A DNA stretch of 64,000 nucleotides from Inmirania thermothiophila. Its GTDB lineage: Bacteria > Pseudomonadota > Gammaproteobacteria > DSM-100275. A program made the position numbers and the translations under genes. The DNA lies in the NCBI RefSeq assembly GCF_003751635.1, contig NZ_RJVI01000003.1, forward strand, positions 1 through 64,000, given 5' to 3'. The notes under the pieces are model-generated. The model did not search any database and was not told the DNA's origin. It worked only from the letters and a program-made list of their open reading frames with translations. Shown here piece by piece: positions 3,574 to 46,450 of the stretch (positions are counted from its first letter, which is position 1; each line of letters begins with the position of its first letter).

Positions 3574-3960
3574 ATGCGTTTGGCTGCGGGCGTGGTTCCG
3601 GCGCTCGTGGCCGTCGCCGCCGGGGCGGAGGGGTGCCGGTCCGCGCCGGAGGAGGTGCGCCGCGGAGAGGCCCTTTGCCGGCGCCACTGCGCGCCCGGGG
3701 GGCCAAGGGGGGGCAGCCCGGCCGGCGGCACCCGCGGCCGGGCCACGATCGGGCGCCGTCCCTGGATGGGGCGGCCATGCCTGGCCGCACGCCCTCCATA
3801 AGCTGCGCTACATGATCCGAAGCGGCAGCCCCTTCCGGCCCCGCGCCATGCCGGCGCAGGGCGGGCGCGAGACCGACGTCGATGCCCTCATCGCCTGCGT
3901 CCGGTCGCCGTGGCCGGACGCTTTGGACCGCGCATGGCTGCGGGCGGAGAACCGCGGGCG
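3574..3960 (+). pseudogene. Decayed monoheme cytochrome c, tandem paralogue of the gene at 4120
   Basis: Pieces of a cytochrome c lie in three frames. From 3574 one frame gives a signal-like start and EEVRRGEALCRRHCAP, after which the CH codons of the heme site CxxCH are missing (CAPGGPRGG). Near 3745-3775 the PSLDGA motif is in another frame. From about 3770 a third frame gives HAWPHALHKLRYMIRSGSP and then DVDALIACVRSPWPDALDRAW. The third part aligns with LDGSGHAWHHPTAVLREVIREGT and IDDVIAWIQSRWPEPVYRRW of the intact gene downstream. At least two frameshifts and loss of the heme motif mean no working product. From 3960 to 4119 I see nothing recognisable. Confidence 0.7.
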
Positions 3961-4119
3961 CGCGGCCGCCTGGCTTGCGTCCTGGCGGCGAATCTTTCAG
4001 CATGGCGCCACGCCGGGCGCGCGGGGGCATCGGCGGAGTGTCGGCTCCTCCCGCCGTTCCTGGAGCAAGGGAGGGCGCGGCGGAGACGGATGGGATACAT
4101 GGACACGGGAGGGCGGCAT

Positions 4120-4542
4120 GTGACGATCCGGTCTCTGCTTGCGGCGCTCGCCCTGGCGGGGGCGTGGACGGCGGCTGCTGCCACCGAGCTGCGCAGCGAC
4201 TTCGCGCGCGTCATGCGCGGTGCGCGCGTCTTCCAGCAGCACTGCGCCGCCTGCCACGGGCGCACCGCCCAGGGGTCGCCAGACTGGCGCCGCCGCGGGC
4301 CCGACGGGCGCTTCCCGCCGCCGCCGCTCGACGGCAGCGGCCACGCCTGGCACCACCCCACGGCGGTGCTGCGCGAGGTGATCCGCGAGGGCACCGTAAA
4401 GGACGGCGGCGGCATGCCGGCCTGGAAGGGGCGGCTGGACGAGGGGCAGATCGACGACGTCATCGCGTGGATCCAGTCACGCTGGCCGGAGCCGGTCTAT
4501 CGCCGCTGGCAGGAGATCGAGCGGCGCAGCGGCCGCCGCTGA
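4120..4542 (+). CDS. Periplasmic monoheme cytochrome c
   Basis: A 140-residue exported class I cytochrome c. Residues 1-22 form a signal peptide ending in AAA. CAACH near residue 40 binds heme covalently, and the Met in GGMPAWKG is the likely sixth ligand. A GTG start at 4120 with GGGAGGG 6 nt upstream is preferred over in-frame ATGs at 4090 and 4099, which would put extra charged residues before the signal peptide. It is the intact copy of the paralogue pair with the remnant upstream, and leads into a DUF302 gene. The electron partner is unknown. Confidence 0.85.
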   Translation: MTIRSLLAALALAGAWTAAAATELRSDFARVMRGARVFQQHCAACHGRTAQGSPDWRRRGPDGRFPPPPLDGSGHAWHHPTAVLREVIREGTVKDGGGMPAWKGRLDEGQIDDVIAWIQSRWPEPVYRRWQEIERRSGRR

Positions 4543-4595
4543 CGGCGGCGGCTGCGCCGGGTATGGATGACGCAAAGACGCGAGGAGGCCTGGAT

Positions 4596-4991
4596 ATGGC
4601 GAGCTACGGTTTCAGCGTGACGGTGAAGGGTGACGTGGAGGCGGTGCGCGAGCGCGTGATCGAGGCGCTCAAGGCCGAGGGCTTCGGGGTGCTCACCGAG
4701 ATCGACGTCCAGAGGACGCTCAAGGAGAAGCTGGGGGAGGACATGCGCCCCTACCGCATCCTCGGTGCCTGCAACCCGCCGCTGGCCCATCGGGCGCTCA
4801 CCGCCGAGCCGGGCGTGGGCCTCCTCCTGCCGTGCAACGTGGTGGTGCGCGAGGTGGCCGACGGCGAGGTGGAGGTGGCCTTCATGGACCCCGAGTCCGT
4901 CCTCGGCGTGGTGGGCAACCCGGCGCTGGCGCCGCTGGGTGCTGAGGTCAAGACGCGTCTCGAGCGCGTGCGCGACGCCGTCGCCGGCTGA
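4596..4991 (+). CDS. DUF302 family protein
   Basis: A 131-residue protein without signal peptide or membrane segment. It has the DUF302 pattern: a TVKGDVEAVRERVIEALKAEGFGVL helix-strand, then YRILGACNPPLAHRAL around a conserved Cys, and LLLPCNVVVRE with a second Cys. DUF302 proteins are common beside sulfur-oxidation and cytochrome genes, but no reaction is established. The AGGAGG at 4582-4587 supports the ATG at 4596. It sits 53 bp after the cytochrome gene and may be co-transcribed. Confidence 0.85.
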   Translation: MASYGFSVTVKGDVEAVRERVIEALKAEGFGVLTEIDVQRTLKEKLGEDMRPYRILGACNPPLAHRALTAEPGVGLLLPCNVVVREVADGEVEVAFMDPESVLGVVGNPALAPLGAEVKTRLERVRDAVAG

Positions 4992-5078
4992 GCGCCCCGG
5001 CGCAGCGACCCGGCGCGGGTCCGGCGTGCGGGCGGGACGCGGCAGGATGGCGGTGTGATGCGCGGGCCGGACGGCTGC

Positions 5079-5327
5079 ATGCGGACCCTTGCCGTCCTGG
5101 TCCTCGCGGGGCTGGTGGCGGTGGCGGCGGGCCCGGTCGCAGCCGCCTGTGTCGGCGGACCGGGTGATCCGGATGGGGGCGCCTGCCGCCATCATGGTCC
5201 GCCGGTGCCGGGCGCACCCGGTATCTGCACCTGGCCCGGCTGCGTCTCTGACTCCCTCGCGCATCGGATGTGGGGCGCCGCGGCGGGGGCGGCGCGAGGT
5301 CGCGTTTCTTGGAGGGAGGACGATGCG
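5079..5327 (+). other. Possible small exported protein or remnant in the 336-bp gap before the frameshifted cytochrome
   Basis: From the ATG at 5079 the frame encodes a good signal-peptide-like start (MRTLAVLVLAGLVAVAAG, then AAAC) followed by a Gly/Pro/Cys-rich stretch with no recognised domain. The frame does not stop before the next gene; it runs on into the cytochrome signal peptide at 5328. It may be an eroded gene that lost its stop, or chance coding in GC-rich DNA. I see no other feature in this gap. Confidence 0.2.
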
Positions 5328-5901
5328 ATGGCAGAGAGACGACAGGGCCCGGCGCGGGTCGCGGGGGTGCTGGCGGCGGCGCTCATGCTCCTCGGCGCCG
5401 GGACGGTGCGGGCCGATGCGGGCCGATGCGGGCCACGGCCCGGGGGCGATGCAGCACGAGCATGGGGGCGGCCACCGCCACGACCGATGGCTCGAGCCGC
5501 CGCCCCCCTACCGGGGCCGGCGCAGCGACCGCTGGGCCGAGCCCGATGCGATCGCGCGCGGGGCGCGGATCTACAAGGCCCGCTGCGAGGTCTGCCACGG
5601 GCGGGACGGCCGTGGCACCGGCCCGCTGGCGGACAGGCTGCCGCACCGGCCGGCGGATCTGACCCAGAACTTCCATCACATCCCCCACGGCGGCGACGAC
5701 TATCTCTTCTGGCGCGTGAGCGAGGGCGGCACCGCCGAGCCCTTCCGCAGCCAGGGCTCCCGGATGCCGGCCTTCAAGGGGGTGCTGTCCGAGGGGGAGA
5801 TCTGGGACGTGCTCGCCTACGTCCATGCCTACTTCCACCTCGGGCTCCACCAGTGGCAGGAGGAGGCCGAGGTGGAGCGGGCCGGGAGAGGGACGCGATG
5901 A
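5328..5901 (+). pseudogene. Periplasmic cytochrome c, frameshifted by a 10-bp tandem duplication
   Basis: The ATG at 5328, 8 nt after GGAGGGAGG, starts a clear signal peptide (RVAGVLAAALMLLGAG, then TVRADA). The mature cytochrome is in another frame: His-rich start, CEVCHGRDGRGTG heme site, SRMPAFKG ligand, and a stop at 5901. The frames part at 5411-5430, where the 10-mer GGCCGATGCG occurs twice in tandem. Removing one copy joins VRADA to GHGPGAMQHEHG with no other change. As it stands, ribosomes from 5328 would read a wrong frame without a stop straight into the next lipoprotein gene. An in-frame ATG at 5323 would make the mature domain without its signal. The gene may be phase-variable, newly broken, or an assembly artefact. 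Confidence 0.85.
5411..5430 (+). repeat. Perfect 10-bp tandem duplication causing a frameshift
   Basis: GGCCGATGCG occurs at 5411-5420 and again at 5421-5430, with a partial third copy (GGCC) following. Ten is not a multiple of three, so a gain or loss of one unit switches the cytochrome frame. Confidence 0.95.
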
Positions 5902-6308
5902 GGATGCCGAAGATGAGCAGGACGACGAGAACGTGGCGTGCGGTGCTGGTCCTGGCCGGCCTCGTGGTGCTGGCGGGCTGCGGCCGGCAGGCGGACGACC
6001 GCCCGCTGCTGCCGCCCCGGGGGTTCGTGGCCGACCCCGCGAAGGGTGAGGTCGCCTACCGCAAGTACTGCGCCGCCTGCCACGGCGAGGACCTGCGCGG
6101 CACCGCCAGCGGGCCGCCGTTTCTCAGCGACATCTACCGTCCCGGCCATCACGGGGACATCGCCTTCTACAAGGCCGCGCGCGACGGGGTCCGCGCCCAC
6201 CACTGGCGCTTCGGCGACATGCCGCCGGTCAAGGGCGTCACCGCCGAGGAGGTGGGCCACATCGTCGCCTACGTCCGCCGCCGCCAGCGCGAGGCCGGGA
6301 TCCGCTGA
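5898..6308 (+). CDS. Lipoprotein monoheme cytochrome c
   Basis: A 136-residue protein whose start overlaps the stop of the preceding cytochrome gene (ATGA), suggesting translational coupling. Residues 1-25 form a lipoprotein signal with lipobox LAGC, so the mature protein should be lipid-anchored facing the periplasm. CAACHGEDLRG is the heme site and DMPPVKG carries the likely Met ligand. Length and motifs fit small class I cytochromes. It is in the same frame as the wrong-frame reading of the upstream gene, so the 10-bp duplication would disturb coupling by feeding ribosomes through as a fusion. Confidence 0.88.
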   Translation: MRMPKMSRTTRTWRAVLVLAGLVVLAGCGRQADDRPLLPPRGFVADPAKGEVAYRKYCAACHGEDLRGTASGPPFLSDIYRPGHHGDIAFYKAARDGVRAHHWRFGDMPPVKGVTAEEVGHIVAYVRRRQREAGIR

Positions 6309-6323
6309 GGGCGGCCGCGCGGA

Positions 6324-6352
6324 GGGACAGCCCGCGGCGGGTCGGGTACACT
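6324..6352 (+). promoter_or_regulatory. Possible sigma-70 promoter of the ccm operon
   Basis: GGGACA and TACACT are separated by exactly 17 bp, giving four of six matches at each element, and lie 29 bp before the ccmA start. This is the only promoter-like pair I found between the cytochrome genes and ccmA. Confidence 0.4.
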
Positions 6353-6380
6353 ACGCCGTCGTCGAATCCACGGGGGCGGC

Positions 6381-7064
6381 GTGTCGACGGAGGCCGTGCG
6401 CGAGGGCGGCGCTCCGGCGCGGGCGCGCGAGGCGCAGGCGGCCGGGGCCCTGCTCGAGGCGGAGGGGCTGGTGTTCGTGCGCGAGGACCGGGTCCTCTTC
6501 GAGGACCTGGGCTTCGCTCTGCATGCCGGCGAGGCCCTGCAGGTGGAGGGGCCCAACGGCTCGGGCAAGACGACGCTGCTGCGCGTCCTGTGCGGCCTCG
6601 CGCTTCCCGAGGAGGGCGAGGTGCGCTGGCGGGGAACCGACATCCGCCGCGCGCGGTCGGAGTATCTGGCCGAGCTCGCCTACATCGGCCATCAGCACGG
6701 GGTCAAGGGGGAGCTCACGCCGCGGGAGAATCTCGCCGTGGCCTGCGCCCTGGGCGGGCGGCGCGACGGCGTCGAGGCGGACGAGGCGCTGGCCCGGATG
6801 GGGCTTTCCGGCTACGAGGACGTGCCCTGCCGCACCCTCTCGGCGGGGCAGCGCAGGCGGGTGGCGCTGGCGCGGCTGCTGCTGACGCCGGCGCGGCTGT
6901 GGATCCTGGACGAGCCGTTCACGGCCCTCGACCGGGGCGGGCGGCGCGACATCGAGCGGCTGATCTCGCAGCACCTGGCGCAGGGCGGGCTGGCGGTCTT
7001 CACGACCCACCACGCGGTGGCGCTGGACGGCGCCGAGGCGCGGGTGGTGCACCTGGGGGCATGA
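6381..7064 (+). CDS. ccmA: Heme exporter ATP-binding protein CcmA
   Basis: ATPase of the CcmABCD complex, which releases holo-CcmE for heme delivery during cytochrome c maturation. The 227 residues contain Walker A GPNGSGKTT near 57-65, the ABC signature LSAGQRRR, Walker B LWILDEP and a switch His in FTTHH. About 20 residues before the usual CcmA start are extra and probably unstructured. A GTG start is used. It is the first gene of a nine-gene operon with mostly 4-nt overlaps, beginning here with ccmB. Confidence 0.93.
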   Translation: MSTEAVREGGAPARAREAQAAGALLEAEGLVFVREDRVLFEDLGFALHAGEALQVEGPNGSGKTTLLRVLCGLALPEEGEVRWRGTDIRRARSEYLAELAYIGHQHGVKGELTPRENLAVACALGGRRDGVEADEALARMGLSGYEDVPCRTLSAGQRRRVALARLLLTPARLWILDEPFTALDRGGRRDIERLISQHLAQGGLAVFTTHHAVALDGAEARVVHLGA

Positions 7065-7747
7065 GCGAGCAGATCGACACCGGGCGTGCCTTCCTGGCGA
7101 TGCTGCGCCGGGACCTGACGCTGGCCTACCGGCACCGGGGCGAGCTGGCGAACCCGCTGCTGTTCTTCGTCATCGTGGTGACGCTCTTCCCCCTCGGCGT
7201 CAGCCCGGAGGCGGGCCTGCTCGCGCGCATCGGCGCCGGGGTCATCTGGGTCGCGGCGCTGCTCGCGGCGATGCTCTCGCTGGACAGCATCTTCCGCTCG
7301 GACTTCGACGACGGCGCCCTCGAGCAGATGCTGCTGAGCCCCCACCCGCTCTCGATGCTGGTGCTGGCCAAGGTGGCGGCGCACTGGCTGGTGACCGGCG
7401 TGCCGCTGCTGGTGATGGCGCCGCTGCTCGGGGTGCTGATGCGGCTTCCGGGCGAGGCCTTGGGGGCGCTGGTGGCGACCCTGGCCCTGGGCACGCCGGT
7501 GCTGAGCCTGATCGGGGCCATCGGCGTCGCCCTCACGGTGGGGCTGCGCCGGGGCGGGGTGCTGGTCTCGCTGCTGGTGCTGCCGCTCTACATTCCGGTG
7601 CTGATCTTCGCGGCGAGCGCCGTCGAGGCGGCGGCCGCCGGGGTGCCGGTGACCGGGCAGCTCTACTTCCTCGGGGCGCTGCTGGCGCTGGCGCTGAGCC
7701 TCGCCCCGTTCGCCGCCGCGGCGGCGCTTCGCGTCAGCCTGAGCTAG
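7061..7747 (+). CDS. ccmB: Heme exporter membrane protein CcmB
   Basis: Inner-membrane subunit of CcmABCD, 228 residues with about six hydrophobic segments. Family features are the N-terminal RDLTLAYRHRGELANPLLFF and the FRSDFDDGALEQMLLSP loop that contacts CcmA. The ATG overlaps the ccmA stop by 4 nt. Confidence 0.93.
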   Translation: MSEQIDTGRAFLAMLRRDLTLAYRHRGELANPLLFFVIVVTLFPLGVSPEAGLLARIGAGVIWVAALLAAMLSLDSIFRSDFDDGALEQMLLSPHPLSMLVLAKVAAHWLVTGVPLLVMAPLLGVLMRLPGEALGALVATLALGTPVLSLIGAIGVALTVGLRRGGVLVSLLVLPLYIPVLIFAASAVEAAAAGVPVTGQLYFLGALLALALSLAPFAAAAALRVSLS

Positions 7748-13448: not shown

Positions 13449-13877
13449 ATGGCGACGACCTTCACCAAGTCCATGGCACGCAACATCTTCTACGGAGGGG
13501 CGGTCTTCTTCTTCCTGCTCTTCCTGGCGCTGACCATGGACACGACCTACAACCGGCTGCCGCAGCGAGACAACCGCCAGGCGATCACGGAGCAGGTGGC
13601 CCTGGGCAAGCGGGTGTGGGAGGAGAACGACTGCATCGGCTGCCACACGCTGCTCGGCGAGGGGGCGTACTTCGCGCCCGAGCTCGGCAACGTGTACAAG
13701 CGGCGCGGTCCGGACTTCATCAAGGCCTGGATCAAGGCGCAGCCGAGCGGCGTGCCGGGGCGGCGGCAGATGCCGCAGTTCAACCTCAGCGAGGAGGAGC
13801 TGGACGCGCTGGTGGCCTTCTTCAAGTACGTCTCCGAGATCGACACCAACGCCTGGCCGCCCAACATCGAGGGCTGA
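13449..13877 (+). CDS. norC: Nitric oxide reductase cytochrome c subunit
   Basis: Small subunit of cNOR, which reduces 2 NO to N2O at the cytoplasmic membrane. The 142-residue protein has one N-terminal membrane anchor (FYGGAVFFFLLFLALTMD) and a periplasmic cytochrome c domain with NDCIGCHTLLGEGAYFAPEL. RQMPQFNLS carries the axial Met. It is the first gene of the nor operon behind a perfect FNR/DNR box. Confidence 0.97.
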   Translation: MATTFTKSMARNIFYGGAVFFFLLFLALTMDTTYNRLPQRDNRQAITEQVALGKRVWEENDCIGCHTLLGEGAYFAPELGNVYKRRGPDFIKAWIKAQPSGVPGRRQMPQFNLSEEELDALVAFFKYVSEIDTNAWPPNIEG

Positions 13878-15332
<1,455 letters not shown>

Positions 15333-39108: not shown

Positions 39109-39753
39109 TCAGCCGCGGTGGCGGGTGGCGGCGTCGAAGGCCACCCGCTGCGGCGGATCCAGCTTCTCGTAGAGGGCCTCGCGGGCGGTGGCGAGGGCCT
39201 CGAGGCGGTCGGCGAGCTGCCGCATGCGGGTGGCCCGGAGGCGCAGCCGCCCTTCCGCCTCGAGGGCGCGGCCGGCGCCCCGCGGGGCCTCGGCACGGAA
39301 GGTCTGCAGGGCCTTCACCGCGTCCGCATAGGCGTTCCAGGCCGCCTCCTGGTCCGGACGGATCCCGAGCTGGGCGCGCAGCCGGTCGAGCCGGGCCTCG
39401 GCCGCCTGGGCGACCTGGGCCTGCATGGCCTCAGCGTCGCTCCCCATCCCGGGCATCCCGCCCGCGCCGGGGCAGGGCCCCTTCCCCGGGCCGCCGAAAG
39501 GGTGGCCGGGACCCATGTCCTGCGGTCCCTCCATGCCGCCCATCATGTGGCCGCCCATCATGTGGCCCATCATCCCGCCCATCATCCCCTGCGCGGGTCC
39601 GCCCATCATGCCCCCCATGGGGCCGCGCTCGCTCCAGCCCCCCCAGCCGCGGGGGCCTTCGGCGTCCCCGGGATGGGAGAAGGCGGTGGCGGCGGCGAGG
39701 CCGAGGGCGGCGGCGGTGGCGAGGGCCAGTGCGTTGCGGGTCCGGTTCTTCAT
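39109..39753 (-). CDS. Met-rich periplasmic Spy/CpxP-like protein
   Basis: A 214-residue protein with a signal peptide ending near AFSHP, a segment of MMGG/MMGHMMGG repeats (about residues 46-76), and a helical C-terminal part (LRAQLGIRPDQEAAWNAYADAVKALQ; LDPPQRVAFD) with the LTxxQ-like pattern of Spy/CpxP. Family members are chaperones for envelope stress; the Met and His clusters suggest copper(I) or silver binding. It is divergent from a CpxRA-like pair, with a CpxR-box-like repeat in between. Confidence 0.85.
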   Translation of the reverse strand: MKNRTRNALALATAAALGLAAATAFSHPGDAEGPRGWGGWSERGPMGGMMGGPAQGMMGGMMGHMMGGHMMGGMEGPQDMGPGHPFGGPGKGPCPGAGGMPGMGSDAEAMQAQVAQAAEARLDRLRAQLGIRPDQEAAWNAYADAVKALQTFRAEAPRGAGRALEAEGRLRLRATRMRQLADRLEALATAREALYEKLDPPQRVAFDAATRHRG

Positions 39754-39959: not shown

Positions 39960-40669
39960 ATGGAAAGGCCGCACGTGCTCGTCGTCGACGACGACCCGGA
40001 GATCCGCGCGCTGCTTGCCGCCTACCTCGAGCGCAACGGGCTGCGCGCGAGCACCGCCGAGGACGGCCGCGCCATGTGGCGGGCCCTCGCCGAGGACCGC
40101 ATCGACCTCGTGATCCTCGACCTGATGCTGCCCGGCGAGGACGGTCTGACCCTCTGCCGCGACCTGCGCGCCCGCTCCTCCGTGCCGGTGATCATGCTCA
40201 CCGCCCGCGGCGAGGAGACCGACCGCATCGTCGGCCTGGAGATGGGCGCCGACGACTACGTGGCCAAGCCCTTCAGCCCGCGCGAGCTGCTCGCCCGCAT
40301 CAAGGCGGTGCTGCGGCGGGCGGGGGGGGCCGCCGGGACGGCGCCGGGGCGGCGCTACCGCTTCGCCGGCTGGACCCTCGACGCGGTCACGCGCCAGCTC
40401 ACCAGCCCCGAGGGGACGGTGGTGCCGCTGAGCGGCGCCGAGTACCGGCTGCTGCGGGTCTTTCTCGAGCGGCCCGGGCGCGTCCTCGCCCGCGACCGTC
40501 TGCTCGACCTCGCGCGCGGCCGCGAGGCCGCCCCCTTCGACCGCAGCATCGACGTCCTGGTCAGCCGCCTGCGCCGCCGCCTCGGCGACGACGGGCGCGA
40601 GCCGCGGCTGATCCGCACGGTGCGCGGGGAGGGCTACGTCCTCGCCGCCGAGGTGGAGGTGGAGGGGCG

Positions 40670-40673
<4 letters not shown>
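39960..40673 (+). CDS. OmpR-family response regulator (CpxR-like)
   Basis: A 237-residue two-domain regulator. The receiver domain has the acidic pair VVDDDPE, the phospho-Asp in VILDLMLPGEDG near residue 56, the switch Thr in MLTARGEE and Lys in VAKPFSPREL. The C-terminal winged helix includes LSGAEYRLLRVFLERPGRVLARDRL and DVLVSRLRRRLGDD. The next gene, the sensor kinase, overlaps by 4 nt. Confidence 0.94.
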
Positions 40674-43859
<3,186 letters not shown>

Positions 43860-43918
43860 GCCTGTCGCGGGCGGGGCCTGCGGGCCCCGCCCGCCCCGGA
43901 TTCCCGACGGAGGAGGCG

Positions 43919-44251
43919 ATGCGCCGGACCCCGCTTGCCCTGGCCGCGATCCTGGCCGCGCTGCCGGCGGTGGCGGCAGGGCCCGGGGGCGCGCGCCAGC
44001 AGGCCCTGCTGCGCCTGCTGCGGCAGGACTGCGGCTCCTGCCACGGCATGACCCTGCGCGGCGGGCTGGGCTCGCCGCTCACCCCCGAGGCCCTCGCGGG
44101 CAAGCCCGACGACCTCCTCGTCACCACCATCCTCGACGGGCGGCCGGGCACCGCGATGCCCCCCTGGCGCAGCGAGATCACGCCCGAGGAGGCGCGCTGG
44201 CTGGTGGCACGGCTGCGTCGGGGGCTTGCGCCGCGGGAGGGCCTGCGGTGA
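43919..44251 (+). CDS. nirC: Small periplasmic cytochrome c of the nir cluster
   Basis: A 110-residue exported cytochrome with signal peptide (residues 1-20), CGSCHGMTLRGG heme site and an AMPPWRSEI axial Met. Size and position between nirS and nirF match NirC, which donates electrons to NirS or NirF-linked heme d1 synthesis steps. AGGAGG precedes the ATG. Confidence 0.85.
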   Translation: MRRTPLALAAILAALPAVAAGPGGARQQALLRLLRQDCGSCHGMTLRGGLGSPLTPEALAGKPDDLLVTTILDGRPGTAMPPWRSEITPEEARWLVARLRRGLAPREGLR

Positions 44252-45411
44252 GGGCGTCCGCCGCGGTGGCGCTGCTCGCCCTGCTCGCCGCCGGCTGCGC
44301 CTCGGTGCGCGGCACCGGGGACCTCGGCCTCGTCGTCGAGCGCGCCGACGGCGCGGTGCAGGTGGTGGACACCACCCGCATGGCGCGCCTTGCCCGCATC
44401 GAGGGCCTCGGCGACCTCTCCCACGCCTCGGCGGTCTTCTCCCGCGACGAGCGCTACGCCTACGTCTTCGGCCGCGACGGCGGCCTGACCAAGGTGGACC
44501 TGCTGCGGGGGCGGATCGTGCGGCGCATCCGCCAGGCCGGCAACAGCATCGGCGGCGCCATCTCCCAGGACGGTCGCGTGATCGCGGTCTCCAACTACGA
44601 GCCGGGCGGGGTGCGGCTCTTCGATGCCGTCACCCTCGAGCCCCTGGCGGAGATCCCGGCGGTGGGCGCCGACGGGCGCCGCTCCAAGGTGGTGGGGCTC
44701 GTGGACGCCCCCGGACGGCGTTTCGTCTTCAGCCTGTTCGAGGCCGGCGAGATCTGGATCGCCGACGTGCACGACCCACGCCGGCCGCAGGTGCAGCGCA
44801 TCCGCGAGGTCGGCCGCCAGCCCTACGACGCGCTGGTGACCCCGGACGGGCGCTGGTACATCGCCGGGCTCTTCGGCGAGGACGGCCTGGCGCTGGTGGA
44901 CCTGTGGCATCCGGAGCGGGGCGCACGGCGCATCCTCCCCCACTACGGTCGCGGCGAGCGGCGGCTGCCCGTCTACAAGATGCCGCACCTGGAGGGCTGG
45001 GCCATCGCCGGGCGGCTCGCCTTCCTGCCCGCGGTGGGCCGCCACGAGCTCCTCGTGGTGGAGACCGAGGGCTGGCGCGAGGTGGCGCGGATCCCGGTCC
45101 ACGGCCAGCCGGTCTTCGCCATGGCCCGCCCGGACGGGCGCCAGGTCTGGGTCAACTTCGCCCATCCCGACAACGACACCGTGCAGGTGATCGACACCGA
45201 GTCGCTCCGTGTGGTGCGCACCCTGCGCCCGGGGCCGGCGGTGCTGCACATGGAGTTCACGCCGCGCGGGGAGCAGGTCTGGATCTCGGTGCGCGACGGC
45301 GGCGAGGTGCAGGTCTACGACACCGAGCGGCTGGAGCCGGTGGCGCGGCTCGAGGCGCGCTACCCCAGCGGCATCTTCTTCACCGCGCGGGCGCACCGGA
45401 TCGGGCTGTGA
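44248..45411 (+). CDS. nirF: Heme d1 biosynthesis protein NirF
   Basis: A 387-residue protein built like the NirS propeller without a cytochrome domain (LGLVVERADGAVQVVDTTR; PDGRWYIAGLFGEDGLALVDL). The N-terminal LLAAGC is a lipobox, so NirF is probably a periplasmic lipoprotein. It acts late in heme d1 synthesis, likely removing propionate side chains or passing on the tetrapyrrole. It starts with GTG overlapping the nirC stop. Confidence 0.92.
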   Translation: MRASAAVALLALLAAGCASVRGTGDLGLVVERADGAVQVVDTTRMARLARIEGLGDLSHASAVFSRDERYAYVFGRDGGLTKVDLLRGRIVRRIRQAGNSIGGAISQDGRVIAVSNYEPGGVRLFDAVTLEPLAEIPAVGADGRRSKVVGLVDAPGRRFVFSLFEAGEIWIADVHDPRRPQVQRIREVGRQPYDALVTPDGRWYIAGLFGEDGLALVDLWHPERGARRILPHYGRGERRLPVYKMPHLEGWAIAGRLAFLPAVGRHELLVVETEGWREVARIPVHGQPVFAMARPDGRQVWVNFAHPDNDTVQVIDTESLRVVRTLRPGPAVLHMEFTPRGEQVWISVRDGGEVQVYDTERLEPVARLEARYPSGIFFTARAHRIGL

Positions 45412-45431
45412 CGGTTCACGGGGACGGGGCG

Positions 45432-45950
45432 ATGCGGGGCAGAGACATGCAGGCGGCGGCAGAAGGGGGGAGGGGCGCCGAGGGCGGGGTGAGCGCCCTC
45501 GAGGCACCGGAGCGCCGCCTCGTCGCCCGCTATCAGTCGGGCCTGCCCCTCGCCCCGGCCCCTTTTTCCGAGATGGGGCGCGCCGTGGGGCTGAGCGAGG
45601 CCCAGGTGCTGGAGGCCCTCGTGCGGCTCCGCGAGCGCGGTGTCCTCTCCCGGGTGGGGGCGGTGGTGCGCCCGCACACCGTCGGGGCGAGCACCCTCGC
45701 GGCGATGGCGGTGCCGGAGGCGGAGCTGGAGCGGGTGGCGGCGCAGGTCTCGGCCCGGCCCGAGGTCAACCACAACTACGAGCGCGAGGGCGAGCTCAAC
45801 CTCTGGTTCGTGGTCACCGCCGCCGACGAGGCGCATCTTGCGCGGGTGCTCGCCGAGATCGAGCAGGCGTGCGGCCACGAGGTGATCGCCCTGCCCATGG
45901 AGCGGGAGTATCACATCGACCTGGGGTTCGATCTGGAATGGACGCGCTGA
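45432..45950 (+). CDS. nirD: Siroheme decarboxylase subunit NirD
   Basis: An AsnC/Lrp-like protein of 172 residues: an N-terminal winged helix (FSEMGRAVGLSEAQVLEALVRLRERGVL) and a C-terminal domain with NHNYEREGELNLWFVV. NirDLGH convert siroheme to didecarboxysiroheme. The N-terminal 25 or so residues may be excess: a GTG at 45408 overlaps the nirF stop, while ATGs at 45432 and 45447 are downstream alternatives. Confidence 0.88.
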   Translation: MRGRDMQAAAEGGRGAEGGVSALEAPERRLVARYQSGLPLAPAPFSEMGRAVGLSEAQVLEALVRLRERGVLSRVGAVVRPHTVGASTLAAMAVPEAELERVAAQVSARPEVNHNYEREGELNLWFVVTAADEAHLARVLAEIEQACGHEVIALPMEREYHIDLGFDLEWTR

Positions 45951-46450
45951 CCGCCCTCGACCCGCGCGACCGCGCGCTCCTCGGCGCCATCCAGGACGGC
46001 CTGCCGCTGGTGGCGCGGCCCTACCGCGCGGTGGGCGAGCGCCTGGGGATGGACGAGTCGGAGGTGATCCTGCGCCTTGCGCGGCTGCTGCGCAGCGGCG
46101 TCATCCGCCGGCTCGGGCTGGTGGTGCGCCACCATGAGCTGGGCTACCGCGCCAACGCCATGGTGGTCTGGGACGTCCCCGACGAGGAGGTGGACGCGGC
46201 GGGGGCGCGCCTTGCGGCCGAGCCTGCGGTGCACCTCTGCTACCGCCGCCGGCGCCATCCGCGCTGGCCCTACAACCTCTACTGCATGGTGCACGGGCGC
46301 GACCGCGAGGCGGTGCTCGCCGAGATCGAGGCGGTGACGCGGCGGGCCGGTCTCGCCGGGCGCCCGCGCCGGGTGCTCTTCAGCCGCCGCCGCTTCAAGC
46401 AGCGCGGGGCCCGCTACGTCTTCGAGGAGCCGGGCCATGCATCGGCTTGA
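45938..46450 (+). CDS. nirL: Siroheme decarboxylase subunit NirL
   Basis: A 170-residue AsnC/Lrp-like protein with winged helix (YRAVGERLGMDESEVILRLARLLRSGVI) and CYRRRRHPRWPYNLYCMVHG in the C-terminal domain, the NirL/NirH form. It overlaps nirD by 13 nt and nirG by 14 nt. Order and size agree with the D-L-G-H order of Pseudomonas. Confidence 0.88.
   Translation: MDALTALDPRDRALLGAIQDGLPLVARPYRAVGERLGMDESEVILRLARLLRSGVIRRLGLVVRHHELGYRANAMVVWDVPDEEVDAAGARLAAEPAVHLCYRRRRHPRWPYNLYCMVHGRDREAVLAEIEAVTRRAGLAGRPRRVLFSRRRFKQRGARYVFEEPGHASA

Follow-up and report, generated by a model that had tools for sequence, protein, structure and literature searches.

The question raised by this locus is why the gene of a predicted periplasmic cytochrome c is divided between two reading frames, and whether the division reflects a mutation, a switch or an artefact. 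The window, that is, the whole 64,000-nucleotide stretch of Inmirania thermothiophila DNA that was analysed, carries an exact period-10 tandem array, TGCGGGCCGATGCGGGCCGATGCGGGCC, at positions 5407–5434 of the forward strand, where a 10-base duplication breaks the frame. The array is 28 bases long with 18 matched positions at period 10, corresponding to two full copies and a further 8 bases (2.8 copies), and over these 18 positions the duplicated insert matches the adjacent sequence exactly. The first-pass annotation had placed GGCCGATGCG at both 5411–5420 and 5421–5430, and direct reading of the sequence bears this out. Tandem Repeats Finder (TRF) delimits a longer, imperfect array at 5399–5434 with 3.6 copies.

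The affected gene lies in a small module on the forward strand. Its mature half (5431–5901) encodes a His-rich monohaem cytochrome c with a CEVCH haem site and, judged from Pfam, alignment and codon bias, is intact but for the frame break. It matches Cytochrome_CBB3 (3.4e-12) and Cytochrom_C (8.4e-9), and the CXXCH motif lies within a domain that scores above the gathering values of both families (46.9 bits vs 27 for PF13442 and 37.1 vs 21.3 for PF00034). The module also includes an upstream cytochrome c (3910–4542, by Pfam; these are the limits of the open reading frame, and translation probably starts further in), whose homologues in the three relatives L043, L045 and L052 show 54–57% identity and lie upstream of DUF302. 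A DUF302 protein follows in the window as well (4596–4991; Pfam DUF302, 7.2e-30), with identities of 66–71% in the same three relatives. The order of upstream cytochrome, DUF302, small exported His/Cys-rich reading frame and His-rich cytochrome is conserved in all three. At 5058–5322 the window holds a small signal-peptide-like reading frame without a stop of its own, possibly a remnant; its position matches that of the small exported His/Cys-rich gene in the gap between DUF302 and the cytochrome of L043, L045 and L052. On the other side, a lipoprotein-type cytochrome c (5898–6308; lipobox LAGC, haem site CAACH), recognized by Pfam and codon usage, overlaps the preceding stop codon by ATGA, and ccm-type genes are found directly downstream in the window.

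To describe the junction, frames were numbered as position modulo 3. The ATG at 5328 is in frame 0 and its frame translates to MAERRQGPARVAGVLAAALMLLGAGTVRADA; the mature cytochrome (5449–5901) occupies frame 1. An open run of frame 0 extends from 5055 to 6308 and contains the lipoprotein cytochrome. The codon-usage log-odds per codon favour frame 0 over 5328–5409 (0.04 vs −0.78 and −1.03 in the other two frames), frame 1 over 5431–5898 (0.21 vs −1.36 and −0.96) and frame 0 over 5898–6305 (0.27 vs −1.08 and −1.25). The bias thus switches from frame 0 to frame 1 inside the array and returns to frame 0 in the next gene, and this shift in codon usage indicates that the 10-base unit, which is not a multiple of 3, breaks the frame of a real gene. 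The signal-peptide coding piece (5328–5420, frame 0), which ends in ADA as for a signal peptidase, was assigned by codon bias, hydropathy and the likeness of its N-terminus to those of the paralogue described below, L043 and L045. Only 5 of 2000 shuffles aligned as well with the paralogue, and the corresponding numbers are 11 for L043 and 16 for L045. Since this likeness exceeds that of most shuffles, the signal peptide is most likely part of the cytochrome gene at 5431–5901 and not of a neighbour.

Two ATGs in different frames lie five bases apart at 5323–5330 (ATGCGATG), with a GGAGG-type site upstream of both. By sequence reading, this purine-rich ribosome-binding region, with two overlapping GGAGG motifs (5311–5319), is placed to serve either ATG 5323 or ATG 5328. 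The alternative ATG (5323–5325) shares its frame with the mature cytochrome. From sequence and hydropathy, however, its N-terminus, MRWQRDDRARRGSRGCWRRR..., lacks an export signal, being arginine-rich and without a hydrophobic core; its best 11-residue hydropathy mean is −0.13, compared with 2.59 for the frame-0 peptide.

The intact form of the gene can be seen in its homologues. A paralogue elsewhere in the same genome (G000:C2:655398-655823) is 60% identical and reads signal peptide and cytochrome in a single frame. GTDB genomes scanned with an alignment as the query yielded 76 loci; a scan of genome contigs with a single protein as the query found no relative. In all 20 usable gammaproteobacterial relatives (L042–L061, of which L051 and L061 had already turned up in the first search as L009 and L011), a signal peptide or lipobox is in frame with the cytochrome. 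The comparison covered 56 relative genomes, the nearest of which shares only the class, with none from the same genus, family or order. As the paralogue and the 20 relatives read through in one frame, the copy in the window is broken, and codon bias, the paralogue and about 20 relatives give good support to the earlier claim that the duplication splits the signal peptide from the cytochrome. The mature half retains the family-invariant residues in the alignment, is up to 69% identical to relatives, and contains neither a stop nor a second frame break. Across six relatives and the paralogue, where dS could be computed, dN is 0.24–0.33 and dS is 0.66–2.4. With dN well below dS, the mature half appears to have been under purifying selection until recently, and its undecayed state points to a recent frame break. 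A separate observation concerns Sedimenticola hydrogenitrophicus SB48, where the homologue (L069:5180-5440) has a frame break at a G run relative to strain SN1189 (L060), making this an independent break of the gene, or a sequencing error, in a second lineage.

The array itself is not a product of chance: among 100 order-3 Markov sequences, each 64 kb long, no tandem repeat reached 18 matched positions. As a genomic background we sampled 446,724 bases (about 17% of the genome): the window, almost the entire remainder of its contig, and 80 kb from a different contig. Three arrays in this sample reach 18 matched positions; the other two have 15-base units, which keep the frame, leaving 5407–5434 as the sole array of at least 18 matched positions with a unit length not divisible by 3. 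When the threshold is lowered to at least 12 matched positions, 16 of the 19 sampled arrays have units that are multiples of 3, and the exceptions are 5407–5434 together with a 7-base and an 8-base unit of only 12 matched positions each. No second frame-breaking array comparable to 5407–5434 was found in the 447 kb sampled. The 15-mer GGGCCGATGCGGGCC has two overlapping occurrences, both in the array, and none elsewhere in the whole genome.

We consider it probable that a recent 10-base slipped-strand tandem duplication turned off this periplasmic His-rich cytochrome c gene. Before the duplication, this stretch would already have contained two TGCGGGCC octamers with starts 10 bases apart, and mispairing between these 8-base direct repeats would have gained one 10-base unit. 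The added 10 bases would shift the frame, such that ribosomes starting at ATG 5328 would make an exported nonsense polypeptide, and those starting at ATG 5323 or at an internal start would make a cytochrome that lacks an export signal and has no access to periplasmic haem attachment. c-Type cytochromes receive their haem in the periplasm, so neither product of the two-unit allele should be a working cytochrome. The same mispairing may also remove a unit, making the allele revertible in principle, and the intact paralogue may cushion the loss. Judged from sequence, the two-unit allele is most likely off for the secreted cytochrome, a revertible null. It shares with known slipped-strand duplication frameshifts the short direct repeats one unit apart, the gain of one unit, the lost frame in an otherwise intact gene and reversibility in principle, and differs in nothing fundamental except that the product is seen here and not the event.

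Other explanations were also weighed. Under an assembly or sequencing error, the genome would truly hold one unit and an intact gene. The intact sequence on either side of the array and the draft state of the genome (five contigs) agree with this, but a 28-base array is far below ordinary short-read length and can be spanned, insertion of a whole 10-base unit would be an unusual base-calling error, and the genome is 99.85% complete with 0 contamination; we regard such an error as rather unlikely. It is very improbable that the two-unit allele still yields the cytochrome, either by +1 ribosomal frameshifting or from ATG 5323. Each ATG does have a GGAGG-type site, and each of the two frames is open; however, frame 0 offers no stop codon to stall a ribosome, the array has no long homopolymer, and the product of ATG 5323 has no hydrophobic export signal. 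Single-strand folding is no stronger than that of shuffles (z 0.18, obtained with DNA energy parameters and weak evidence on RNA). Programmed frameshifting was rejected on the results for stop codon, homopolymer and fold. Rfam gave no match in 4500–7500. A functional frame-0 fusion of the signal peptide, about 160 Arg/Pro/Gly-rich residues and the lipoprotein cytochrome is barely credible: it would use the open frame from 5328 to 6308, but codon usage in frame 0 is strongly non-coding over 5431–5898 (−1.36 per codon) and the shifted frame is equally stop-free in the paralogue, L043 and L044, and the candidate was rejected on these two grounds. The first-pass annotation had drawn attention to the stop-free run of the shifted frame into the lipoprotein cytochrome at 5898. 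The run is indeed open to 6308, but the same openness in those three homologues leaves it little weight, and it follows from the ATGA overlap (5898–5901), which fixes the frame relation, and from the G+C content of 75%.

A further rival is a phase-variable (contingency) locus, in which one or two units would switch export of the cytochrome on or off. In its favour, a 10-base unit shifts the frame, the array falls at the junction of signal peptide and mature protein and is unique of its kind in the 447 kb sampled, and the off allele shows no other damage. A phase-variable gene in its off state would likewise combine a 10-base array with an undecayed mature half. These features recall the simple-sequence contingency loci of Neisseria and Haemophilus, which likewise have an intragenic array near the 5′ end of a gene for an exported protein. 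Here, however, the exact copies number only 2.8, under the repeat numbers used for calling such loci: the PhasomeIt cut-off is 3 repeats for units of 6 to 9 bases, with none listed for 10-base units (PMC5953494), and the main determinant of repeat instability is the repeat number (PMC3899988). Genomes rich in phase-variable loci also contrast with the present sample, where no comparable frame-breaking array occurs, and none of the relatives examined is broken at this site. The open frame into the downstream gene is an effect of base composition. Moreover, the known loci act on surface antigens, whereas this one would act on a periplasmic electron carrier and its array is known from one assembly; no direct precedent for a cytochrome made phase-variable by a tandem repeat was found among the top literature matches. 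We judge a contingency locus unlikely, and its fuller version, an export switch of a copper-linked periplasmic cytochrome c that provides bet-hedging for metal handling or electron transfer, quite unlikely. Were this switch real, the target of the contingency locus would be an electron carrier instead of a surface antigen, in an environmental gammaproteobacterium. Given the short array and the lack of a similar one in the sampled 17%, we treat the allele as a revertible null and not as a switch. Among the three options left by the first-pass annotation, recent inactivation fits best, and the phase-variable switch loses ground to the array of two copies and 8 bases and to the sample without another like it.

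Several other features of the window and genome were observed. The genome encodes a form II RubisCO. The norCB-like genes (window 13449–15332) and a haem d1/nir-type cluster (about 42000–46450) suggest that the organism probably denitrifies. On the reverse strand, window 39109–39753 encodes a Met-rich exported protein with in-frame 15-base repeats and lies divergent to a paired response regulator and sensor kinase on the forward strand (window 39960–42079); from the sequence, the protein and the two-component pair look like an envelope- or metal-stress system. In the genome copy analysed, G000:C3:245001-252500 (L127:1001-8500) consists of 7.5 kb of N.

Regarding the role of the broken gene, its relatives provide the context. 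In L045, the module is preceded by CopA multicopper oxidase (TIGR01480 above the cut-off) and CopB and followed by a MerR regulator, and L052 starts with CopA multicopper oxidase, also with TIGR01480 above the cut-off. The His-rich cytochrome is preceded in L048 by a CusA/CzcA-type RND pump, and the cytochrome of L039 by an HMA-domain heavy-metal P-type ATPase and a CsoR-type repressor. From these neighbours (copA/copB, CusA-type efflux, P-type ATPase, MerR/CsoR regulators), the His-rich cytochrome probably serves copper handling in the cell envelope. In the window itself no copper genes adjoin the cytochrome (no copAB), cytA and DUF302 being its conserved neighbours there, and CopA matches in this genome are only below the family cut-off. 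With the monohaem class I/cbb3-type cytochromes c (PF13442, PF00034) the protein shares the CXXCH haem site, significant Pfam matches and, in its relatives, a signal peptide, and it adds to them a His-rich N-terminal linker and a conserved GDxYLFWRVSEGG segment. The family motif is HRHxxWxxPP...GDxYLFWRVSEGG, found beside copper-resistance genes in L039, L045, L048 and L052. No specific equivalog or named family in NCBIfam reached its cut-off for this group, which looks like an unnamed copper-linked cytochrome c family. No direct precedent linking DUF302 with copper resistance and cytochrome c was found among the top literature matches. What is new here is the copper-gene surroundings of the relatives of the His-rich cytochrome.

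For the organism, the break means that the strain probably lacks a working copy of this cytochrome unless the allele reverts. Automatic annotation would probably place the start of the gene model at ATG 5323 or at an internal ATG, and such a model describes a protein without an export signal. Perhaps the more useful side result is a family of His-rich cytochromes c that accompanies copper-resistance genes and lacks a specific curated name.
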